Shown here piece by piece: positions 1,789 to 60,677 of a stretch of 60,677 nt of DNA. Every line of letters starts with the position of its first letter. Within the stretch, counting starts at the first letter, position 1. This stretch comes from Kiritimatiellia bacterium. GTDB taxonomy: Bacteria; Verrucomicrobiota; Kiritimatiellia; UBA8416; JABMPJ01. Made by a program: the position numbers and the translations under genes. The stretch spans positions 1-60,677 of the forward strand of contig JADHWE010000007.1 in the NCBI GenBank assembly GCA_016783675.1. Reading direction: 5' to 3'. The notes under the pieces were generated by a model. That model was not told where the DNA came from. It worked only from the letters and a program-made list of their open reading frames with translations, and ran no database searches.

Positions 1789-2574
1789 ATGGCTTTACGG
1801 GTGTGTGTTTTAGCTAGTGGGAGCAAGGGGAACTGTACCGTCATGGCGACGGAGTCTACCCGGATTCTCATCGATGCGGGGTTGAGCGGGAAGGAGACGG
1901 ATCGCCGGCTGCAGGAGGCCGGGTGGGAGCTCGACCAGATCGACGCCATCTGCGTGAGCCACGAGCATGACGACCACAAGGCCGCCTTGGGGATTCTGCA
2001 GCGGCGGTTGGGCGTGCCGCTCTATTCGAATGCCGGGACGATCGAGGCACTGGAACGCACTCCGAAACATGCCGGCTTGGATTGGCATGTTTTCTCCAAC
2101 GGCTCGCCATTCCATGTGGGTGATCTTGTTGTGGAGCCTTTCTCTGTGCCGCACGACTCCTACGACCCGGTGGGATTTGTCGTGTCGGCGGAGGGCGTGC
2201 GTGTCGGGATTGTAACGGACATGGGAACACCCACCGAGCTGATCCGGCAGCGCCTGAAAGGGTGCCGCGCCATTGTGCTCGAAGCCAATCATGACGAAGG
2301 GATGCTGCGTGATGCTCCGCGTCCATGGTCGCTCAAGCAGCGCATCGCCGGTCGCCAGGGCCACCTCTCCAACAAGCAGGCGGGCGAGCTGCTGGCCGAG
2401 GTCGCCGGCGAGGTGCTCGACATCGTCTTCCTTGCCCACCTCAGCGCCGACTGCAACCAGCCCGACATTGCCGAGCAAACCGTCCGCGACGCCCTCGACA
2501 GTTCTGGTCACGCCCACGTCCGAATCCGCCACACCTATTCCGACCGCATCAGCGAGGTGGTGGAGTTGGGGTGA
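1789..2574 (+). CDS. MBL-fold metallo-hydrolase, WalJ/YycJ-like
   Basis: A 261-aa metallo-beta-lactamase-fold hydrolase. The N-terminus VCVLASGSKGNCT and the metal motif SHEHDDH (HxHxDH, around residues 58-64) match the WalJ/YycJ family, whose Firmicutes members are linked to cell-wall and DNA-repair phenotypes. Later metal ligands are plausible at VTDMG and in the C-terminal LAHLSADCN segment. The length is normal for the family. The exact substrate cannot be read from sequence. It is divergent from rpoN and convergent with lpxB, whose stop lies 3 bases downstream. Confidence 0.85.
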   Translation: MALRVCVLASGSKGNCTVMATESTRILIDAGLSGKETDRRLQEAGWELDQIDAICVSHEHDDHKAALGILQRRLGVPLYSNAGTIEALERTPKHAGLDWHVFSNGSPFHVGDLVVEPFSVPHDSYDPVGFVVSAEGVRVGIVTDMGTPTELIRQRLKGCRAIVLEANHDEGMLRDAPRPWSLKQRIAGRQGHLSNKQAGELLAEVAGEVLDIVFLAHLSADCNQPDIAEQTVRDALDSSGHAHVRIRHTYSDRISEVVELG

Positions 2575-2577
2575 GTG

Positions 2578-3720
2578 CTACGGAGCGATCGTATCGAGCA
2601 CCGACTGGGCGGCGCGGGTGGCGGCGCCGGGTGGGCCGAGGCGTTCGTTGACGGCGTCGAGCTCGGCCAGGGCGGCGGTGTGGGCGGTGTCGTCGCTGAT
2701 GAGTGGCTCGATGGCGTCGGCCAGGTTCTCGGGGGTGCCGCCGTACTGGATCCGCTCCGGGGCGATCTCACGGCCGGCGACGATATTGACCAGGCCGAGG
2801 TAATCCACCTTCACCATCGCGCGGTACAGTAGGTAGGTCATAAAAGAAGCCTGGTAGGTGATGACCATGGGGCAGCGCATGAGCGAGGCCTCAAGCGTGG
2901 CGGTGCCGGAAGCAATGAGCGCCGCGCGCGCCTCTCCCATTACCGGTCGTGTCTGGCCGATGGCGGTTGCGCAACGCGTGGGGCCGGGGGGCAGCGAGGC
3001 CTGGACCTTCTCCACCAACGCCGACGCGGCTTCGTCGTGTACCGGGATGATGAATGACGCGGTCGGATGGCGCTCCTCGATCAGTTTGGCCGCGGCCCAC
3101 ATCAAGGGGAGTATACGCTCGATCTCGTGGTGGCGGCTGCCGGGCAACAGGGCGATGCGCGGTTCGCCTTGCCAGGGGAGGGGGGTATGGGGCTGCTCTC
3201 TCGCTTCGGTGATTTCGTCGACGAGGGGATTGCCGACGAAGTCGACCTGCAAGCCGGTCTCCTTGAAGTAGTCGGGCTCAAAGGGGAAGAAGACAATCAG
3301 TCGATCGAGCATGGCGGCCATTTTCGGGATGCGCGCCTGGTGCCAGGCCCAGACCTGCGGGCAGACATAGTAGATGGTCTTGAATCCCATGAGATGGGCG
3401 CGTTTCGCAAAGCGCAGGTTGAAGCCGGGATAGTCGACCAGTATCACGGCATCAGGCCGCCGGCTTCGGAGAAGGGCAAGCATATCGTAGAAGATGGAAC
3501 GCAGGTGACGATACTTGCTGACGACTTCGGCGAAGCCCGTCACGGCCATGTCGGCAATATCGACAACTGTATCCACACCCGCCGCGCGCATCTGCTCGCC
3601 ACCCGCCCCGAAGAAGGTGATGTCGGGCTTCTGCTCACGGATGGCGCGAACGAGGCGCGCGGCATGCATATCGCCGGACACCTCGCCGGCTATGATCATC
3701 AAGCTGGGCTTTCGTGGCAT
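2578..3720 (-). CDS. lpxB: Lipid-A-disaccharide synthase
   Basis: LpxB joins UDP-2,3-diacylglucosamine and lipid X to form the lipid A disaccharide at the inner membrane (GT19 family). The 380-aa protein has the family N-terminus MIIAGEVSGDMHAARL. It also has VDYPGFNLRFAK, YYVCPQVWAW, FPFEPDYF and LLPGSRHHEIERILP, all typical of LpxB. The frame extends to 3744, but the ATG at 3720 follows GGAGCTAAC and gives the usual start. lpxI and an oxidoreductase lie upstream on the same strand, so this is probably a lipid A gene cluster split by repeats. Confidence 0.95.
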   Translation of the reverse strand: MPRKPSLMIIAGEVSGDMHAARLVRAIREQKPDITFFGAGGEQMRAAGVDTVVDIADMAVTGFAEVVSKYRHLRSIFYDMLALLRSRRPDAVILVDYPGFNLRFAKRAHLMGFKTIYYVCPQVWAWHQARIPKMAAMLDRLIVFFPFEPDYFKETGLQVDFVGNPLVDEITEAREQPHTPLPWQGEPRIALLPGSRHHEIERILPLMWAAAKLIEERHPTASFIIPVHDEAASALVEKVQASLPPGPTRCATAIGQTRPVMGEARAALIASGTATLEASLMRCPMVITYQASFMTYLLYRAMVKVDYLGLVNIVAGREIAPERIQYGGTPENLADAIEPLISDDTAHTAALAELDAVNERLGPPGAATRAAQSVLDTIAP

Positions 3721-3739
3721 GTTAGCTCCGCATGTGACC

Positions 3740-3832
3740 CCCATGACCTTGTGTCATGGGTGAACAAGATCTTTCGAAAACACGTCTGTTTTCGAGAAGA
3801 GATCTTCTGTTCCAACGACGCGAGGTCGTTGG
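3740..3832. repeat. Twin-hairpin palindromic element between lpxB and the oxidoreductase gene
   Basis: Two perfect 8-bp stems with 5-nt loops flank a longer stem. The first is CCCATGAC-cttgt-GTCATGGG at 3740-3760. The second is CCAACGAC-gcgag-GTCGTTGG at 3812-3832. Between them is an interrupted inverted repeat (GAACA, AGATCTT, TCGAAAACA and their complements, about 3762-3811). The layout, stem ending in GAC, 5-nt loop, GTC, recurs at 26800-26859 and 19872-19892 with different stem bases, which suggests a dispersed structural family. Confidence 0.7.
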
Positions 3833-3864
3833 GGACAGTCGTGTCTTCTTGCCATTGGTTCTCA

Positions 3865-4812
3865 CTATGAGGGATTCGTTTCGATGACGTGGCAGATGTC
3901 GGCGGCGAGTTGGAGGGCTTTGGATCCCTGTTCACCGGTCACGACGGGTTCACCGCGAGTGCGCACGCATTCGACAAACGCTTTCAGTTCATGCTCAAGC
4001 TGGTCGCCCTTTTCAGAGGGAATGTCCACCACGTGCATGCCGTCGGGGCCTTTGCGGTGCAGCGTGCCCGCCTGCTTGCCGTAGTCGAGCGCGGCATAGG
4101 TGTCGTCCTGGAATACCGTGATAGTGCGCATCTGCTCGGCACTGATCCGGCTGGCGGTCACGTTGGCGATGCACCCGTTCTGGAAGCGCAAGCGGACGTC
4201 GGCGATATCTTCACTGGGGCTCATGACGGCCACGCCAAACGCGCGGATGTCGACGACCGGCGAGCGGACGAGATGAAGAATGATCTCGAGGTCGTGGATC
4301 ATCATGTCGAGAACCACGCTCACTTCGGTGCCGCGGGGTGGGGCGCCTTCACGGAAGGGCGGGTAGGCGCACATGCGGATGGCCTCGATGAAGGTAGGGC
4401 TCCGCATGTTGTCCTCAAGGAACTGCATGACGGGGTTGAAGCGCTCAATGTGGCCCACCTGCAGGATCAGTCCCTTCTCGCGTGCCAGCGCAACCATCTC
4501 CTCGGCCTCTGCGGTTGTCGTTGCGATGGGTTTCTCCATCAGCATGTGCAGGTCATGGTTGGCCAGCTTGGCGAAGGTCTCGTGGTGGAGGTGGGTCGGA
4601 ACGACGATGCTGGCGGCATCGGCGGCATCGGCCAACTCTTCCATGCTGGTGAAGGGCTGCGTCTCGTTCTTCTCCGCGATCTCGGCTGCGCGATCGGGGT
4701 CGACGTCGAACACACCTACCAGCTCAGCGTCTTCCATCGCGGCATACTTCGCGGCATGCCACTGCCCCAGGCTCCCGACACCGAATACTCCCACCTTCAG
4801 TCTGTCAGACAT
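3865..4812 (-). CDS. Gfo/Idh/MocA-family NAD(P)-dependent oxidoreductase
   Basis: A 315-aa oxidoreductase with an N-terminal Rossmann motif (VGVFGVGSLGQWHAAKY) and the family signature MLMEKPIATT around residue 95 (EKP lysine). The C-terminal alpha/beta domain includes GHIERFNP and DMMIHDLEIILHL, the latter supplying the usual catalytic His. It lies between lpxI and lpxB. In some bacteria a member of this family (GnnA) oxidises UDP-GlcNAc at C3 for amide-linked lipid A, but no GnnB aminotransferase is seen here, so that role is only a guess. An AGGAAC ribosome site precedes the ATG. Confidence 0.85.
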   Translation of the reverse strand: MSDRLKVGVFGVGSLGQWHAAKYAAMEDAELVGVFDVDPDRAAEIAEKNETQPFTSMEELADAADAASIVVPTHLHHETFAKLANHDLHMLMEKPIATTTAEAEEMVALAREKGLILQVGHIERFNPVMQFLEDNMRSPTFIEAIRMCAYPPFREGAPPRGTEVSVVLDMMIHDLEIILHLVRSPVVDIRAFGVAVMSPSEDIADVRLRFQNGCIANVTASRISAEQMRTITVFQDDTYAALDYGKQAGTLHRKGPDGMHVVDIPSEKGDQLEHELKAFVECVRTRGEPVVTGEQGSKALQLAADICHVIETNPS

Positions 4813-52222: not shown

Positions 52223-53299
52223 ATGAGCAACACGGCAAGAGACATCTTGATCCCGAGTGATACGAGCATATTCCGAATCGCGTTCCTTTACGTTGGGCAG
52301 GGCGATGCGACTTTACTAGTCGTGCCTGACGGCGGGAGCTTTCGATTCCTGCTCGTTGACACCAACGTTGACAAAGAGCGCGGCGGCATTGACATGGTGG
52401 CCTTGCTGACGGATCTGTTGGACGAAGAGCTTGGTGCCTTCATCAACACGCATCCGCACAGCGATCACGTTAGAGGCGTCAAGGCGATCCATGACGCAGT
52501 CGGCATCAAAGAGGTGTGGCATTCAGCCCACGTTCCTGGGAAGAAGCACAAAGACGCATATGACGAATTGCTGGAAGTCATCAAGGACATCGGCACGGAG
52601 AATGAGTACGAGTTGCGGGGCACTCGGGAAGAGAACACGCTGGAACAGAACGAAGAACCATGCGAGCACCCGATTGGCGAACCAAGTTACAATGTGCTGT
52701 CTCCCGCAGACTACGTGAAAGAAGACATAGAAGGCGAGAAGCCAGAGGATAGGGCCCGTCGGATTCACGAGCAGTGTGGTGTCATTCGCTTTGTTTACGG
52801 CGAAGATGCAAAGGCCGTGCTTCTCACCGGCGATTCCGATCGGACGGCGTGGGAGGATCGCATCACTGACTACCACAAGGAGCGCCTTCCATCAGACGTG
52901 CTCAGTGCAAGCCACCATGGCTCGCGCACGTTCTTCAAGAAGGACGAAGACGACGATGATCCGTACAAAGGCCACATGGACGAGATCACGCCCACGTATA
53001 TAGTGATCAGTGCACCGAAGCAGTCAGAAAGCCCGCATGATCATCCTCATGATGACGCTATCGAGATTTACAAGGAATACGTCAACAGTGATGACATTCT
53101 CCATCTTGGTGCGAACCGTGAATGCGTCATCGTGGACATTGACGGAGATGGGAATGTCACCGTGACGACCGATACGGAACTTGTCGATGAGTATGGATTC
53201 GACGGCGAAGAGGATGATGACGGCAGAAGCGCGGCGGCGACTGGCCCATTCGTCCACAAGTCAAGTACCGGGGACAAGACGCCTAGAAGGTATGGTTGA
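52223..53299 (+). CDS. ComEC-like MBL-fold hydrolase with Gly C-terminus
   Basis: A 358-aa MBL-fold hydrolase. It has YVGQGDATLLVVPDG, a complete metal motif THPHSDH (76-82), LLTGDSDR and SASHHGS. After the domain comes a flexible acidic tail (EYGFDGEEDDDGRSAAATG) ending in TPRRYG, so the last residue is Gly. The next two genes encode an E2-E1 fusion and a JAB peptidase, as in type II CBASS, where Cap2 attaches the CD-NTase through its C-terminal residue. This protein occupies the CD-NTase position, so it may be the conjugated substrate. That is inference. GGAGG ribosome site. Confidence 0.85.
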   Translation: MSNTARDILIPSDTSIFRIAFLYVGQGDATLLVVPDGGSFRFLLVDTNVDKERGGIDMVALLTDLLDEELGAFINTHPHSDHVRGVKAIHDAVGIKEVWHSAHVPGKKHKDAYDELLEVIKDIGTENEYELRGTREENTLEQNEEPCEHPIGEPSYNVLSPADYVKEDIEGEKPEDRARRIHEQCGVIRFVYGEDAKAVLLTGDSDRTAWEDRITDYHKERLPSDVLSASHHGSRTFFKKDEDDDDPYKGHMDEITPTYIVISAPKQSESPHDHPHDDAIEIYKEYVNSDDILHLGANRECVIVDIDGDGNVTVTTDTELVDEYGFDGEEDDDGRSAAATGPFVHKSSTGDKTPRRYG

Positions 53300-53300
53300 G

Positions 53301-55145
53301 ATGGTGAAGGGAGCCACAGTTCCCCATCCTATCCATCGCGGCTACGAGATCCTACGCCGCGAGGGCAACATTGAAATCACGGATGACCTGAAGGCTGTCG
53401 ACGAGAAGGATGAGACGGTCTTCAGGTTCTCTTACCTTGAGACTGTCGTTACGCCGAACATCGAAAATGTCCCGCGTCAGGTTCCTGTCCGGGTTGATAT
53501 TCCATGCACGTTCCCGTACGACGCACCGAAGATCTACAGTGAATCTAGAGATGTCCGGGGGTTTCCGCATCAGGATGCCGAGACAGGAAAGCTCTGCCTA
53601 TTTGATGAGTCGAGAGCGCGGTTGAATGAGAGGCGCTTGTTGACTTACGTCGAGTGGACGAGGCAATGGCTTCATGACGCGGCTACAGGCCAATTGCTTA
53701 CGGCCGGGGATCCGTATGAACTCCCCGACTTCAGCAGGCGGCGCCTGCGCAAACGAATAGAGTCACTTCCCACCGTTTACACGATGGAGTCGGAACAGTC
53801 GTGGCCCAATTGGCAAAACAGAATCGGCCAGGTGGGTGCAGTGTCATTCCGCGCACTGAAGCCCTTCAAAGGCATATTTCCGACGCTGTTTCGTGACTCT
53901 GACAAAACTGTTGTTGAGGAATTCGGCGTCGCAGACGCCCTTGTCGCCCCCCGTGGCCTTCAGATTGACGGCGTGTGGGCTTTGCTCGACAGCCTCTGCT
54001 ATCATCGTCACAGACCTGCTCAGACCTACGGTGAGATAGCAGAGGTCTGCAACCGTGTAGGAATCGGTTTTGATGCACTGCTGTGGGCGGCATGGCGTGC
54101 GTCGCGGGATGACGCCGCTCCCTGCATTATTCTGCTGGGGTATGCCATTCCCGAGCAAGTAGGAGACGACCCGGTTCGCGTCCACTGGCAGCCCCTTTTC
54201 TTTGAAGGTATCAGGAGGCAGTTTCATAACCACAAGGACAAGAAGAACAAGCGGATCAAGCCCGGGGGGCTTTTCAAGAGGAGTAAGCATGATGGGGAAT
54301 TCGCGGACAACAAGCCTCTCCTTTGGGGCAGGTCCGTGAATGTGTCGAGCGCCGCGCTCTATGCGCGCGGTGCGTTGCCAGGCGAGCTTCACAAGCGGAA
54401 AATCTCGATATGCGGTTGTGGCGCGCTGGGGTGTCTTGTCGCGGAGGTCTTAGCACGGGGAGGAGTCCGACAGCTTCGTCTGTTCGATTACGACGAATTT
54501 GAGATCGGCAACCAGTGCCGCCACACACTTTCGGGCGGTGACATTGGCGAGTTCAAGTCGAAAGCGCTAGCAGAGCGCCTACAGAGCTGCAATCTGTTTT
54601 CGGATATCCGTGGGTATGCCGCCCGCTTCCCTCTGACTGACAAGCCTGTTGCCCGGGGTGTATCGATCGCGGAAGAACTGTTCTCGTCGGACTTCATACT
54701 GGACTGCGGGATGTCTGAGGGGGGCTTTCAGTGGCTGAGTCGGGAAGCAAAGAAGCGGGGGATCCGGATGGCGGCGATCTTCTTCAATTTGCATGCCAAG
54801 ATGTTGACTCTCTGTGTATCAGGAAAGCGCGTTTCTTGTTACAAGGCGATCTGTAGGCTCGACCGGGATATCCGAGCGGGCAGAGCTTCCTTCAGCTATG
54901 AGGAGTATAGCCCCGAGGTGAGGGATGAGGATAAGGTTCTGCCGGACATTGGCTGCTGGCATGCAACTTTCCCGGGGGTCAACAACCACATATGGATGCT
55001 GGTTGCATCCGCGGTAGAACTGCTTTCTGATCGTTGCTGTCAAGAAATGGGCGACAGGGGTTCGACTGTCGTAATCCGAAGGAACACGATGCGGGACGAC
55101 ATCCCGCTGCCCCTAACGGAGGTCGTATGGTCGAAGGAATACTGA
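53301..55145 (+). CDS. E2-E1 fusion protein, Cap2-like ubiquitin-conjugation enzyme
   Basis: A 614-aa two-module enzyme. The N-terminal E2-like domain has VRVDIPCTFPYDAPKIYS and the active-site motif with H90 and C99 (GKLCLFD). A middle linker domain is followed by the ThiF/E1 adenylation domain, with nucleotide motif SICGCGALG (369-377), RLFDYDEFEIGNQCRHTL and a conserved Lys/Arg region (FKSKALAERL). Candidate E1 cysteines include the VSCYKAI segment. It should adenylate a C-terminal Gly and transfer it via E1 and E2 cysteines to a target. The start at 53301 is preferred (AAGG 10 bases before) over 53292. Confidence 0.88.
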   Translation: MVKGATVPHPIHRGYEILRREGNIEITDDLKAVDEKDETVFRFSYLETVVTPNIENVPRQVPVRVDIPCTFPYDAPKIYSESRDVRGFPHQDAETGKLCLFDESRARLNERRLLTYVEWTRQWLHDAATGQLLTAGDPYELPDFSRRRLRKRIESLPTVYTMESEQSWPNWQNRIGQVGAVSFRALKPFKGIFPTLFRDSDKTVVEEFGVADALVAPRGLQIDGVWALLDSLCYHRHRPAQTYGEIAEVCNRVGIGFDALLWAAWRASRDDAAPCIILLGYAIPEQVGDDPVRVHWQPLFFEGIRRQFHNHKDKKNKRIKPGGLFKRSKHDGEFADNKPLLWGRSVNVSSAALYARGALPGELHKRKISICGCGALGCLVAEVLARGGVRQLRLFDYDEFEIGNQCRHTLSGGDIGEFKSKALAERLQSCNLFSDIRGYAARFPLTDKPVARGVSIAEELFSSDFILDCGMSEGGFQWLSREAKKRGIRMAAIFFNLHAKMLTLCVSGKRVSCYKAICRLDRDIRAGRASFSYEEYSPEVRDEDKVLPDIGCWHATFPGVNNHIWMLVASAVELLSDRCCQEMGDRGSTVVIRRNTMRDDIPLPLTEVVWSKEY

Positions 55146-55657
55146 TGCGAGACCTCCCTCTTCACTGGATATCCGCTTGTGAATGCTACCGGGTCACCTT
55201 ATCCGCAGAATGTCTTCGGGATATGCTTATCCTTAGTAAGCAGCACTTGCCGCGGGAAACGGGTGCCTCCGTATACGGCACGTACTCCAGAGATGGGTTC
55301 CACGCCGCGGTCCTTGGCAACGGTCCAGTGGCCAGTGACTCAGTGTGTGGGCGATTCTCCTTCCTTCGTGGAGCAAAAGGGGCAACGAGCTGCTTCTCGG
55401 ATATTTTCAAGCGAAGCCGTGGTAGGCAGCACTATGTCGGAGAGTGGCACAGCCATCCCGGCGGCCCCACCACGCCCAGTACGTTGGACAACCGAACCCT
55501 TCGCGCTATTGCGGTCGACCGGGCAACAAACTGCCCCGAATGCATCTTACTGCTTATTGGTGGCGACATAGCCAATCAACCCAGGCTCGGTGTCTACGTA
55601 TACTCGCGAGAGCGGGGCCGCGTGGATCTCCATCCCGATGGAAGGAGAAGAACGTGA
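55145..55657 (+). CDS. JAB/MPN isopeptidase, Cap3-like
   Basis: A 170-aa metallopeptidase with a complete JAMM motif: E39 (ETGA), H102 and H104 (WHSHPGG), S112 and D115 (PSTLD). In type II CBASS and Bil-type systems the JAB protease matures the modifier or removes it from targets. The ATG overlaps the E2-E1 stop (TGATG) with an AAGGA site, so the enzymes are co-translated. It also overlaps the next gene (GTGA). Confidence 0.9.
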   Translation: MRDLPLHWISACECYRVTLSAECLRDMLILSKQHLPRETGASVYGTYSRDGFHAAVLGNGPVASDSVCGRFSFLRGAKGATSCFSDIFKRSRGRQHYVGEWHSHPGGPTTPSTLDNRTLRAIAVDRATNCPECILLLIGGDIANQPRLGVYVYSRERGRVDLHPDGRRRT

Positions 55658-56742
55658 GATCGGACTTCTACACCGTAAGTCGCGAGACCTGGCTTTTTGC
55701 CGGCACGGCGACAGAATCCGACGGCAAGCGTACTCAGCCGGAAGAAGACGTCCGCCAGTGGTGCCTTCACGAGCTTCTGCGTGCGTACGGGGTCCTGATT
55801 GGCAACCTGCAAGTAGAGCGCCCGGTCCGCGTCGGCACCCGTACACATCGAGCCGATATCGTGATGCTCCAGGATAACCGGCCATACATCGTGATCGAGT
55901 GCAAGTCCCGTCGAACGCGGAAGCACGACGAGGCGATGAAGCAGGCGATCAGCTACGCGACTGCAGCGGACATGAATGCTGAGTTCGCCGTGTATACGAA
56001 CGGGGACGTCTGGTGGGTACGTCGGCGCGTCAAGGATCAATGGGTGCCGGTTCCCGATCTGCCCACGTTCCGAGATGGTGCTCCGACCACGGACTGGCAG
56101 GATATCCTGCTGGCCGTGGATCGGGCGGGGCCAGTTCTGTACTGGCTCGACGAGACCGTGCCTGTCAAGCAAGCCGCCGAATACTTCGGTGCCCTGCAAC
56201 GATTCTTCCATGCATCGAATGAGATCACGGCAGATACCGACCACAAGCTGCTGTGGTCCGCAGGCCACGTTTTGCGCGTCCTCGATGATGTGAACCGCCA
56301 TCCGAACTACACCGGGGGCAAGCTATCTCATGCGTGTGATGGACTGAACAAGTACTGGCAAGCCAGGGGAATTGAGCCATCGTTCGGCGGCGATGACCTC
56401 TGGGAAATGGCGCACCACGCCTGGGCCGATCTCTCTTGTCATATGGAGGGTGCACGTGACGTCCCGGCGTTGGACCATCAGGCCATACGTGTCATTCTCG
56501 CGTTGCTGGATTACCTCAATCGCATGAAAGGCCGGCGGGTGAAGTACCGCGCAATTGAGTCTTCGATCCAGACGGAAGTCCGAGCCTACATCGACCTTGC
56601 CCTGAAGTTGCGCTTCAACGCCCAATTGCCCGATCCCCAGGACAAGATCCTGGTCCAGGACGTGCGCGACTTCTGTCGGCCTCTGTGGAGCGAGTACCTC
56701 AAGGAGCGGAATGGAGGACCATGGACGGGGCGACGCAAGTAG
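55654..56742 (+). CDS. PD-(D/E)XK nuclease-like protein (HsdR N-terminal domain type)
   Basis: A 362-aa protein with a type I restriction R-subunit N-terminal nuclease domain: EEDVRQWCLHELLRAYG, then D68 (RADIVML) and E82-x-K84 (VIECKSR), and the QAISYATAADMNAEFAVYTNG motif downstream. It lacks a helicase. The C-terminal half (180-362) is helical and unrecognised. GTG start at 55654 with a GGAAGGAG site overlaps the JAB stop. As last gene of the E2-E1/JAB operon it is the likely DNA-degrading effector. Confidence 0.83.
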   Translation: MRSDFYTVSRETWLFAGTATESDGKRTQPEEDVRQWCLHELLRAYGVLIGNLQVERPVRVGTRTHRADIVMLQDNRPYIVIECKSRRTRKHDEAMKQAISYATAADMNAEFAVYTNGDVWWVRRRVKDQWVPVPDLPTFRDGAPTTDWQDILLAVDRAGPVLYWLDETVPVKQAAEYFGALQRFFHASNEITADTDHKLLWSAGHVLRVLDDVNRHPNYTGGKLSHACDGLNKYWQARGIEPSFGGDDLWEMAHHAWADLSCHMEGARDVPALDHQAIRVILALLDYLNRMKGRRVKYRAIESSIQTEVRAYIDLALKLRFNAQLPDPQDKILVQDVRDFCRPLWSEYLKERNGGPWTGRRK

Positions 56743-57681: not shown

Positions 57682-59250
57682 CTATCTCTTCCAGTCATCT
57701 TCCCAGTAGTCGAGCGGGATTGGCGGGACTATATCTTGTTCAGTTCTCTCGCGTTCCTTTAGAGCTTCCTCAACAAACACGGCACCAGTCAGATAAATCA
57801 GGGCGGCACGGACGGTTTTCAGCAACCACAGGGCCTTTGCTTCGAATTCGTGCCGATAGACTGAGTATGCCAGCGCATCGTGGTTCCACGAAGGGCCAAA
57901 GCGGGTTGCGTTTTCCGCGCCGATCCATTCTCGTTCGTGAAGCTTGAGATACCTATGCTCAAGGTGATTTCGGAGCTGGGAGACTCCTCGCGCTTCGGGC
58001 GCGATGACGTCACGGAACCCGGGAGCATCCTCAAACAGGTCTTTGCTCAGCCAAAACAGACCGTGTAGGGGTAGGTTTCGACGGCATGTGATTGCAGGTC
58101 TCAGCCCTTTCTTTCGTTGGCTTGCTTGGTACCAAAGGCTGCGAAAGCTCACACCTGAGTGGCGGATGCCCAAATCGAGGTACTCGTTGAGAAAGAAAGC
58201 GATCTTGTCGAGGACGGAATAGGCAATGCGAAAACCAGCTTTCTCCTGTTCTGCAGCCAGCGAATATGAGGGGTAATCCAATGTGTTGACCAGTCGGACG
58301 AGTCGATCACTGAAATGCGGACCACACGATGTCAGACCGGTATAGAAAATGTAACGGGCAGAGGCATACTCCTGCTTGAGCTGATTCATCATTCCGAGCA
58401 GACGCATGTCGTCATCTATGCCAACGACCATGTCCGGCAGCATGAGATCGTCGTTGGCTGAATCCGGCCCCCTCGAAACTTCGTTTGTGGGGGTCAGAAA
58501 GAGACAATTCTCCAGAGCCCACATACGATACTTCCGCTCTTGAGCCGAACACTCTTCCCCCCATGAACCAGTCGCGGCGGGTTGATTTCGGCACTGGGGC
58601 GAAAGGACCTTTTCGAGTGACTGCTGCGCGCGTTCGAAAACGCCGCGGGCGTGTTCCTCTACATTTCCGTCCAAACCTTGGCAAATGTCCCGGTACGCCT
58701 GGCGCCACAGCACATGGCGGTGCGTCTCGCTCTGTGCGTACTGACCGTAGAGGAAGATCCCATACCCTCTGTTCCCGCGCGCCATGCCGAAGGATTGATC
58801 TCTGGCCAGAGCACGATCCCAATATGCGATTGCCTCAACGGGGCGACCAAGCCAACTCATCACATTCGCCAGGTTCGTCAACGCGGGGCAGAGCACACGG
58901 GAATCGTCCAACTCGGGATATGACAGGGACGTGCGGTAGTGAAGGATCTCTTGTTCCGCCTCTGGATCTTCCCATGTAGGGAAGCCGGAAGATGGTCGCG
59001 TCTTGATGCCGCGTAGGCCCGACCAGGCGTTTGCCAGGAAGTAGTTCAGCCGGCAGACTTCGTCGGCGGACAAGGAACGGGCCTCTATTTCCGCACCCAA
59101 GCTCACTGCCTTCTTGAGCCCTGCCTCTCTCCGCAATGCGTTCGCGGTATCGATCAGCAGTCCCAGGTGCCGGAGACCGGCCTCAGTCTCCAGGTCGGCA
59201 ATCGAGTCCCGCTTGAGCAGCGTCTGATAGTTGTTCTCTATCTCATTCAC
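57682..59250 (-). CDS. LA2681-type HEPN RNase-like protein
   Basis: A 522-aa protein. The N-terminal half looks like TPR helices (ALTNLANVMSWLGRPVEAIA, WDRALARDQSFGMARGNRGY). The C-terminal half matches the LA2681 HEPN family: HSGVSFRSLWY, LHGLFWLSKDLF, and the catalytic R-x4-H motif R427-NHLE-H432. HEPN proteins of this kind are metal-independent RNases found in toxin-antitoxin and abortive infection systems. The nucleotide-cyclase-like protein follows immediately and may signal to it. Confidence 0.82.
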   Translation of the reverse strand: MNEIENNYQTLLKRDSIADLETEAGLRHLGLLIDTANALRREAGLKKAVSLGAEIEARSLSADEVCRLNYFLANAWSGLRGIKTRPSSGFPTWEDPEAEQEILHYRTSLSYPELDDSRVLCPALTNLANVMSWLGRPVEAIAYWDRALARDQSFGMARGNRGYGIFLYGQYAQSETHRHVLWRQAYRDICQGLDGNVEEHARGVFERAQQSLEKVLSPQCRNQPAATGSWGEECSAQERKYRMWALENCLFLTPTNEVSRGPDSANDDLMLPDMVVGIDDDMRLLGMMNQLKQEYASARYIFYTGLTSCGPHFSDRLVRLVNTLDYPSYSLAAEQEKAGFRIAYSVLDKIAFFLNEYLDLGIRHSGVSFRSLWYQASQRKKGLRPAITCRRNLPLHGLFWLSKDLFEDAPGFRDVIAPEARGVSQLRNHLEHRYLKLHEREWIGAENATRFGPSWNHDALAYSVYRHEFEAKALWLLKTVRAALIYLTGAVFVEEALKERERTEQDIVPPIPLDYWEDDWKR

Positions 59251-59437
59251 CTGCCAGAATCCTCTTCATGAACCATGAGGATAGCGGAAAGCGCGAAAAA
59301 CTCAATCGGCCTCTCCGGGGAGATGTGCATGGCCCGGACTTCAACGTGCTCACGGTGCGCGCATCAGTCACAGCTTGCAATATGTGTGATGAATGATTAG
59401 CGTGATCGCAGTAGAAACCTTATAGGAGGATATTGAT
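59251..59437. other. Divergent intergenic region before the Pro/Gly-rich peptide gene
   Basis: Between the HEPN gene (minus) and the peptide gene (plus) are 187 bases with no gene, expected to hold both promoters. The right end has a strong AGGAGG ribosome site (59424-59429) that marks the peptide start. Confidence 0.5.
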
Positions 59438-59611
59438 ATGCCAAAGGATGATAACCCCGGAAAAGGCAATCCCGCAGGACCCGCAACACCTGCGAATCCG
59501 GGCGGCCCCGGACAGCCGGCTGAACCTGCAAAGCCGGCGACGCCGCCACCGAATCCCGGAAAGCGGCCGCCGAATCGCCCCAAACCTGGCCCCGGAAGAC
59601 AAGTCGGGTGA
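59438..59611 (+). CDS. 57-aa Pro/Gly-rich disordered peptide with C-terminal Gly, candidate protein modifier
   Basis: A very short gene: MPKDDNPGKGNPAGPATPAN at the start, then Pro/Ala/Gly/Lys-rich sequence, ending GPGRQVG. About a third of the residues are Pro; no beta-grasp fold is possible, so it is not ubiquitin-like in structure. An AGGAGG site 8 bases before the ATG and a stop overlapping the next start (TGATG) support real translation. The next gene is an E2-E1 fusion. A C-terminal Gly just ahead of an E1-type enzyme suggests that this peptide is adenylated and attached to targets. Alternatively it is a linker or unrelated small protein. Confidence 0.75.
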   Translation: MPKDDNPGKGNPAGPATPANPGGPGQPAEPAKPATPPPNPGKRPPNRPKPGPGRQVG

Positions 59612-60677
59612 TGAGATGGTGGGAACGCTACGCGGGCTCCCTCGATGAAGAGCTGAAGGCGCTCGATCAGCTTGGCGTCGAGCCCCATCTCAACGATGAA
59701 TTACTGAAACAGGGCGTCGTCAGCATCGACGTTCGCGTATCGATATTGGGCGATGCGCGCTCCGGGCGTATTGAATATCCGGAGCTTTTTTCCTATTTTC
59801 GGCCCCGATTGTACGTACGATCCCTCGATCGCAGCGTGCGTCACTGGAACCCCATCAACGGGGAGCTCTGTCTACTCGGTCGATCCTCGGAGCACTGGGA
59901 ACCCCAAATGACCGCGGCCGACCTGTTAAGGGATCAACTCCCCAAGTGGGAGGAAGCCGCCGTCCACGCCTATGACAATGAGCGAACCCCTGGCGAGGAC
60001 TCACAAGCAGAACCCGCCAGCGCCTACTTTCCTCAGCAGCCAGGGCAGATGGTCTTCATCGACAGTTCGCAAGAGTTGCCTGCCGGTCTGATATGGGGGT
60101 GGATGAAAGTCGCGACCGCGAAAGGTCGGACTTCCATTGTACGTGATTCGCCTTGGACTGGGTGGGTTGTCGAGATTGCAGGCTCCGACCGCAAAGACGT
60201 GATCGCTGCCCCTGAAGCCGACATCAAGGAGTGGGCAGAACGGCATGGACTGGAATCGTTCGTCTGTCCCTGGATAGCTCTGGATCAACCACCAACGAGC
60301 CTTGAGACATTGCTTGATGATGTGTTGGCTTGGCTTGCCGGGAAGGAACCAGATGCGCCGGGGAAGATCCTGCCGTTCCAGTCCACCAAGAAGAGCGGTT
60401 TGCTAGGCCTTTGCTTCCCCGAAGAAGCCCCCGGCGGAGGCATAAGACAGGGCTGGCTCTTTATCGCACACTGCCGGGCTCCCAAGATCAAAAAGAAGGA
60501 GCGAGGCTCAACGAAGCAAGTTGCACGCTGGATCGTGACAGCGGAAGGCATTGGAAGAACAGGTCTTTTCGAGCGAGTGCCGGAGCTTTCACCACTTCGC
60601 GAGAAAACGATCGCTGTAGTCGGACTGGGGTGCATCGGCGCACCCAGCGCGCTGGCTTTTGCAAAGGCAGGGGTTGG
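59611..60677 (+). CDS. Second E2-E1 fusion protein, cut by the window end
   Basis: Partial, 355 codons seen. The N-terminal E2-like domain has YFRPRLYVRS and the active-site motif HWNPINGELCLLGR (H78, C87). A middle domain of about 230 residues follows, then the beginning of a ThiF/E1 domain with TIAVVGLGCIGAPSALAFAK (nucleotide motif GxGxxG). It differs strongly from the E2-E1 at 53301, so this is a distinct system, not a duplication. The start at 59611 overlaps the stop of the Pro/Gly-rich peptide. The remaining E1 domain and any JAB gene lie outside the window. Confidence 0.83.
   Translation, partial: MRWWERYAGSLDEELKALDQLGVEPHLNDELLKQGVVSIDVRVSILGDARSGRIEYPELFSYFRPRLYVRSLDRSVRHWNPINGELCLLGRSSEHWEPQMTAADLLRDQLPKWEEAAVHAYDNERTPGEDSQAEPASAYFPQQPGQMVFIDSSQELPAGLIWGWMKVATAKGRTSIVRDSPWTGWVVEIAGSDRKDVIAAPEADIKEWAERHGLESFVCPWIALDQPPTSLETLLDDVLAWLAGKEPDAPGKILPFQSTKKSGLLGLCFPEEAPGGGIRQGWLFIAHCRAPKIKKKERGSTKQVARWIVTAEGIGRTGLFERVPELSPLREKTIAVVGLGCIGAPSALAFAKAGV

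Follow-up and report, generated by a model that had tools for sequence, protein, structure and literature searches.

What does an E2-E1 fusion enzyme act on when the gene that precedes it encodes only a short, disordered, Pro/Gly-rich peptide? The question arises at the edge of the window, by which we mean the whole stretch of DNA analysed (60,677 nucleotides). The window is one complete contig of a 2.6 Mb, 71.6%-complete genome and ends within the E2-E1 gene at 60677, so that the catalytic half of the E1, and anything downstream, including a JAB gene, would lie beyond the contig end. No recognisable piece of the remaining E1 was found elsewhere in the same assembly. Because the contig stops inside the E2-E1 gene, our analysis relied on relatives.

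The peptide gene (59438–59611, + strand) encodes 57 amino acids, MPKDDNPGKG...PKPGPGRQVG-stop, of which 33% are Pro and 18% are Gly. Its product is the proposed modifier, and it has counterparts in 38 other loci. An AGGAGG ribosome-binding site (59424–59429, + strand) lies eight bases 5′ of the ATG, and a purine-rich site also precedes the peptide start in most relatives. The conserved C-terminal tail, defined by column counts over 34 peptides, reads G-R-Q-V-G in the window (59594–59608, + strand). The TGA stop codon (59609–59611) overlaps by one base the ATG of the E2-E1 fusion gene (59611–60677, + strand), which was recognised by a clade profile (held-out score of 214 bits), by the PADLOC E1-E2 model PDLC00855 (E 1.8e-9) and through plasmid relatives. 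The Pfam ThiF match of this fragment is weak because most of that domain is missing from it. Within the fragment lie the E2 active site HWNP...GELCL (59842–59874, + strand; HWNP at 59842–59853, Cys codon at 59869–59871), whose His and Cys are invariant in 28 relatives, and the E1 nucleotide-binding motif GLGCIG (60622–60639, + strand), whose three Gly positions are likewise invariant in 28 relatives. The gene ending in GRQVG, its ribosome site, the stop/start overlap and both enzyme motifs had been described in the earlier note, and all were confirmed.

A tblastn search of plasmids with the window's fragment returned four distant relatives (28–34% identity), from Arthrobacter, Hymenobacter, Iamia and Indioceanicola. 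In all four, a Pro-rich frame of 48–59 aa lies directly 5′ of E2-E1, with the ends PRPVG, DRPVGQQ, HRPVG and PRQVG, and a JAB gene lies directly 3′. We then searched 84,980 species genomes using the E1 half, and plasmids a second time, which brought the number of loci with an intact start to 39: the window and 38 others (L003–L006, L008–L019, L021–L033, L050–L055 and L066–L068). This set contains near-duplicates, for example L004/L018, L025/L052/L055, L051/L068, L053/L066 and L054/L067. The phyla represented are Pseudomonadota, Bacteroidota, Actinomycetota, Planctomycetota, Chloroflexota, Bacillota and Patescibacteria. No relatives were found in 388 genomes of the window's own phylum, and the phage records searched gave no match; viral contigs yielded one short fragment (L007, left out), and a later search of them yielded none. 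Most annotated plasmid records that we examined have no entry for the peptide, so annotation-based surveys are likely to miss the cassette.

Broken, degraded or cut loci were not counted, namely L020, L041 (degraded) and L043 (whose contig begins inside E1). At L020 (Mesorhizobium, 2450–4789), apparent insertion-sequence DNA replaces the 5′ part of the E2-E1 gene, and no peptide was found at this broken locus. Candidates L034–L040, L042 and L044 from the E1-half scan were rejected as members, being MoeB/ThiF-like. Plasmid pNGR234a of S. fredii NGR234 carries two cassettes (L050 and L066), with the tails PPKHVG and SHRPVG.

A short Pro/Gly-rich frame lies directly upstream of E2-E1 in all 39 intact-start loci. 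The earlier note had held that homologous E2-E1 loci lacking the peptide would refute its reading; none with an intact start was found. As controls we took the E2-E1 genes that come closest to the clade without belonging to it. They comprise six CBASS operons that contain a CD-NTase (L056, L059, L060, L062, L063 and L065), four 6A-MBL operons (L057, L058, L064, assigned by its layout, and the one in the window itself, at 53181) and one Bil-like operon (L061). None of these 11 carries the peptide. The arrangement is far beyond chance, because it recurs in 38 further loci and in none of the controls. In 27 of 31 loci the gap between peptide and E2-E1 falls between −4 and +6 nt; judged from this spacing, the two genes appear to be translationally coupled, and their association as neighbours is itself supported by comparison between loci. 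The enzymes are also well delimited: against the clade profile no full-length member, held-out sequences included, falls below 497 bits, and no outsider exceeds 147. Of the 28 peptide-linked rows in the E1 tree, 26 fall in one clade (support 96/95); the two Bacillota members join it with low support (58/10), and their placement is insecure.

What is conserved in the peptide is mainly its end. The 34 core peptides, which were not deduplicated, are 30–59 aa long with an average P+G content of about 51%, and share the tail consensus [R/K]-x-[V/Y]-[G/A], preceded by a PPKPP-like run. Counting from the C-terminus, and setting aside the QQ that follows the terminal Gly in two copies (L004 and L018), position −1 is G in 33 peptides and A in one (L016), position −2 is V in 32, the two Bacillota peptides having Y, and position −4 is R or K in 32. 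The expectation that such a frame always ends in Gly therefore held for 33 of the 34, two of them with the added QQ, and failed for the single Ala. At L015 (2967–3332) the frame has no stop after DREVG (DREVG-ARCSS...), the only member to run past the Gly; it is either a real long precursor or an assembly error. Between pairs of relatives, the pooled pN/pS of the peptide is 0.23; well-diverged pairs range from 0.08 to 0.34, and the most similar pairs differ at too few sites for a judgement. These comparisons support both a conserved tail and coding constraint, with substitution patterns indicating that the peptide is under purifying selection.

The peptide has no predicted fold. AlphaFold2, given 22 aligned peptides, predicted no secondary structure (pTM 0.18), and neither Pfam nor NCBIfam yielded a real match. 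At one locus in a Hymenobacter genome (L014, 1602–2090), however, the upstream gene encodes not a bare peptide but a protein with two DUF1508 (YegP-like) repeats (Pfam PF07411, E 1e-21), followed by a Pro-rich linker and the same end, PGDRPVG. Since the tail here sits on a folded domain, the conserved unit is the tail. The earlier note's inference of a short, unstructured, Pro-rich modifier is supported by these comparisons, with the refinement that the tail is what is kept and can sit on a folded domain, as in L014; conjugation itself has not been shown.

The enzymes retain the residues that a conjugation cycle would use. In 28 aligned E2-E1 proteins (numbering of L008), the invariant positions comprise His78 and Cys87 of the E2, the GxGxxG glycines of the E1, and Asp354, Asp356, Arg365, Lys377 and Cys509; the zinc-type cysteines are nearly invariant. 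Only the E2 catalytic Cys is visible in the window, and the E1 catalytic Cys that the earlier note had sought beyond the contig end is seen in the relatives, as Cys509. The JAB gene it expected there was likewise met in relatives, as a frame 3′ of E2-E1 in 30 of 30 scanned loci; in the further plasmid loci a JAB gene is annotated or visible in seven of nine (L053 and L055 were not covered). Glu28, His90, His92, Ser101 and Asp104 are invariant in 20 JAB proteins, and the JAMM motif is intact. These catalytic residues and the JAB linkage are comparative observations, as is a Cap2-like architecture: the closest solved structure by sequence profile is Cap2 (7to3, E 2.4e-23), and an AlphaFold2 model of E2-E1 (pLDDT 79, pTM 0.70) matches Cap2 best across E2, linker and E1 (TM 0.51, rmsd 31), with a domain placement that differs from Cap2. 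By sequence and predicted fold, the E2-E1 is thus closest to CBASS Cap2. Its best NCBIfam match is 6A-MBL (NF058523), far below cut-off, and the JAB matches the TIGR02256 and Cap3 models, also below cut-off.

We propose that the peptide is most likely a ubiquitin-like modifier consisting of little more than a C-terminal tail, its conjugation being inferred. That the three genes (peptide, E2-E1 and JAB) form a ubiquitin-like conjugation system with the peptide as modifier we consider highly probable, in the absence of biochemical evidence. We also think it probable that the cassette represents a widespread bacterial modification in which a disordered Pro/Gly-rich peptide is the minimal, tail-only modifier of a full E1-E2-JAB cycle. 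In such a cycle, the E1 domain would adenylate the terminal Gly of the peptide and form a thioester with it on the E1 Cys; the peptide would then pass to the Cys of the fused E2, which would attach it to an unidentified target, probably on lysines. The JAB protease would remove the attached peptide, and may first trim precursors in variants such as RPVG-QQ. Activation, conjugation, deconjugation, the targets and the function of the cassette are all inferred. Chains linked through lysine cannot be a general feature, since the core peptide of L005 contains none.

The enzymes would act as Cap2 and Cap3 do in type II CBASS, with a free-standing tail in place of the cyclase. There cGAS, which lacks the ubiquitin fold, is bound by Cap2 as a thioester through its C-terminal Gly; Cap2 conjugates it, mainly to lysines, and Cap3 removes it; the last residue of Cap2 substrates is Gly or Ala, and no other is known (PMC10097602). 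The cassette resembles type II CBASS in its order, an E2-E1 fusion followed by JAB, in a Cap2-type E2-E1 with (in relatives) a catalytic Cys in both domains, and in a Cap3-type JAB gene, also seen in relatives. It differs in that its upstream gene encodes a 30–59-aa peptide, its E2-E1 clade is well separated, no CD-NTase recurs in it as cyclase or substrate, and no cyclic-nucleotide effector family recurs among 119 neighbours. Nor does any alternative beta-grasp or CD-NTase gene, which the earlier note had named as a possible refutation, recur beside the cassette. Because it has neither cyclase nor effector, the cassette is not CBASS; it would work like the conjugation arm of CBASS. By analogy, it would keep the CBASS enzymes and the rule on the terminal residue, including one Ala, with a bare tail as substrate.

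Other systems resemble the cassette in part. The 6A-MBL operons (Iyer et al., 2006, row 6a; NCBIfam NF058523) share E2-E1 and JAB, but a metallo-beta-lactamase gene stands where the cassette has the peptide. Iyer et al. described E2-E1-JAB operon types 6a–6e, with a Rhizobium NGR234 replicon among the entries for 6b and 6c (PMC1779556); a text search of that paper found no mention of a proline-rich peptide. Bil/Bub systems also combine bacterial E1, E2 and JAB with a small modifier, and the Bub E1-E2 complex (9eav) is a weak structural match to our E2-E1 model. Their modifier, however, is a beta-grasp protein, BilA having ubiquitin-like domains (PMC11354881), whereas AlphaFold2 predicts no fold for the cassette peptide. 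We found no earlier description of the cassette in the open-access literature; most subscription papers and preprints were not covered. Since the enzyme is Cap2-like, a substrate without a beta-grasp fold is not without precedent. In pupylation the small modifier is disordered as well. The last residues of Pup are GGQ or GGE, and PafA attaches it via a side chain; the cassette instead has the [R/K]x[V/Y][G/A] tail and E2-E1 and JAB enzymes. ThiF, MoeB, MccB and PaaA have the E1 adenylation domain in common with the cassette, but they come without E2 or JAB and make different products.

This last group suggests another role for the peptide, as the precursor of a small secreted or toxic product whose C-terminus the E1 activates without any protein target. 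MccB acts in this way on MccA in microcin C7 synthesis, and PaaA acts on its own peptide; both are E1-like enzymes on short peptides that appear among our structure and sequence matches, and the cassette peptide is likewise short and encoded beside its enzyme. We nevertheless regard such a product as unlikely. The fused E2 has an invariant His and Cys and a JAB gene always follows, and to our knowledge MccB- or PaaA-type pathways need neither; Cap2 outscores MccB in both the sequence-profile and the structure searches; genes for transport or immunity do not recur next to the cassette; and L014 carries the tail on a DUF1508 protein. We give similarly little weight to the idea that the peptide serves E2-E1 as a partner or regulatory subunit, or that its tail only docks, the true modifier being encoded elsewhere. 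A binding partner, too, could be tightly coupled and have a conserved tail, but this tail, with its terminal Gly or Ala, is exactly the kind that Cap2 activates (PMC10097602). Moreover, the QQ after the Gly in L004 and L018 resembles a processed precursor, and no other small gene recurs in the cassette.

Less probable still is a regulatory leader, in which a Pro-rich nascent chain stalls ribosomes and so controls expression of E2-E1. The frame is indeed short and Pro-rich, lies immediately 5′ of E2-E1 and is conserved at its C-terminus, much as arrest peptides are. Yet an RNA switch would have no space between genes that overlap or lie at most 6 nt apart, as these do in 27 of 31 loci; the would-be stalling context is altered in the QQ and DUF1508 variants; and a Gly/Ala end beside an E1 enzyme would be a coincidence. 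All three alternatives lose ground to the constant presence of E2 and JAB, to the gene overlap, which would not accommodate an RNA switch, and to the QQ and DUF1508 variants. A chance open frame, which arises easily in GC-rich DNA since Pro and Gly codons are GC-rich, is refuted by 39 loci in seven phyla against none of 11 controls and by purifying selection.

If the peptide is indeed a modifier, it would be the smallest and least structured of any E1-E2 system known to us, in a system spanning at least seven phyla. E1 and E2 enzymes would then need only a C-terminal tail, the head on that tail would be swappable (peptide, DUF1508 domain or cyclase), and the cassette would offer a minimal system for studying recognition by E1 and E2. 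The pNGR234a pair (L050 and L066) would suit asking whether cassette pairs are orthogonal.

Among 119 neighbours, no fourth gene, target or effector recurs beside the cassette, so its function has to be read from a context that is only partly defence-like. Neighbours include integrases, resolvases and transfer genes, with defence genes in several loci: a 6A-MBL operon in the window, type I restriction-modification genes beside L030, a type IIG system beside L033, and a CBASS cyclase near L008 that is separate and on the other strand. Three cassettes on plasmids, from three phyla, lie beside metal-resistance genes (L003, L004 and L051). From this context we infer that a role in defence against phages or other mobile DNA is likely.

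The 6A-MBL operon of the window (metallo-beta-lactamase, E2-E1 and JAB; 52223–55657) is separate and lies 4 kb upstream of the cassette. Its metallo-beta-lactamase ends in KTPRRYG, and those of L058 and L057 in RKPMGGQ and KQPMGTEHE; by analogy with the CBASS cyclase, the metallo-beta-lactamase of such operons may itself carry a tail that E1 activates. Directly 3′ of the JAB gene of this operon, at 55657–56742 (+ strand), is a gene for a stand-alone protein that bears an HSDR_N_2 (type I restriction) nuclease domain. Just before the peptide gene, at 57682–59250 (− strand), lies a gene for TPR repeats and a HEPN_LA2681 domain (E 1e-68), which is probably an independent defence gene.
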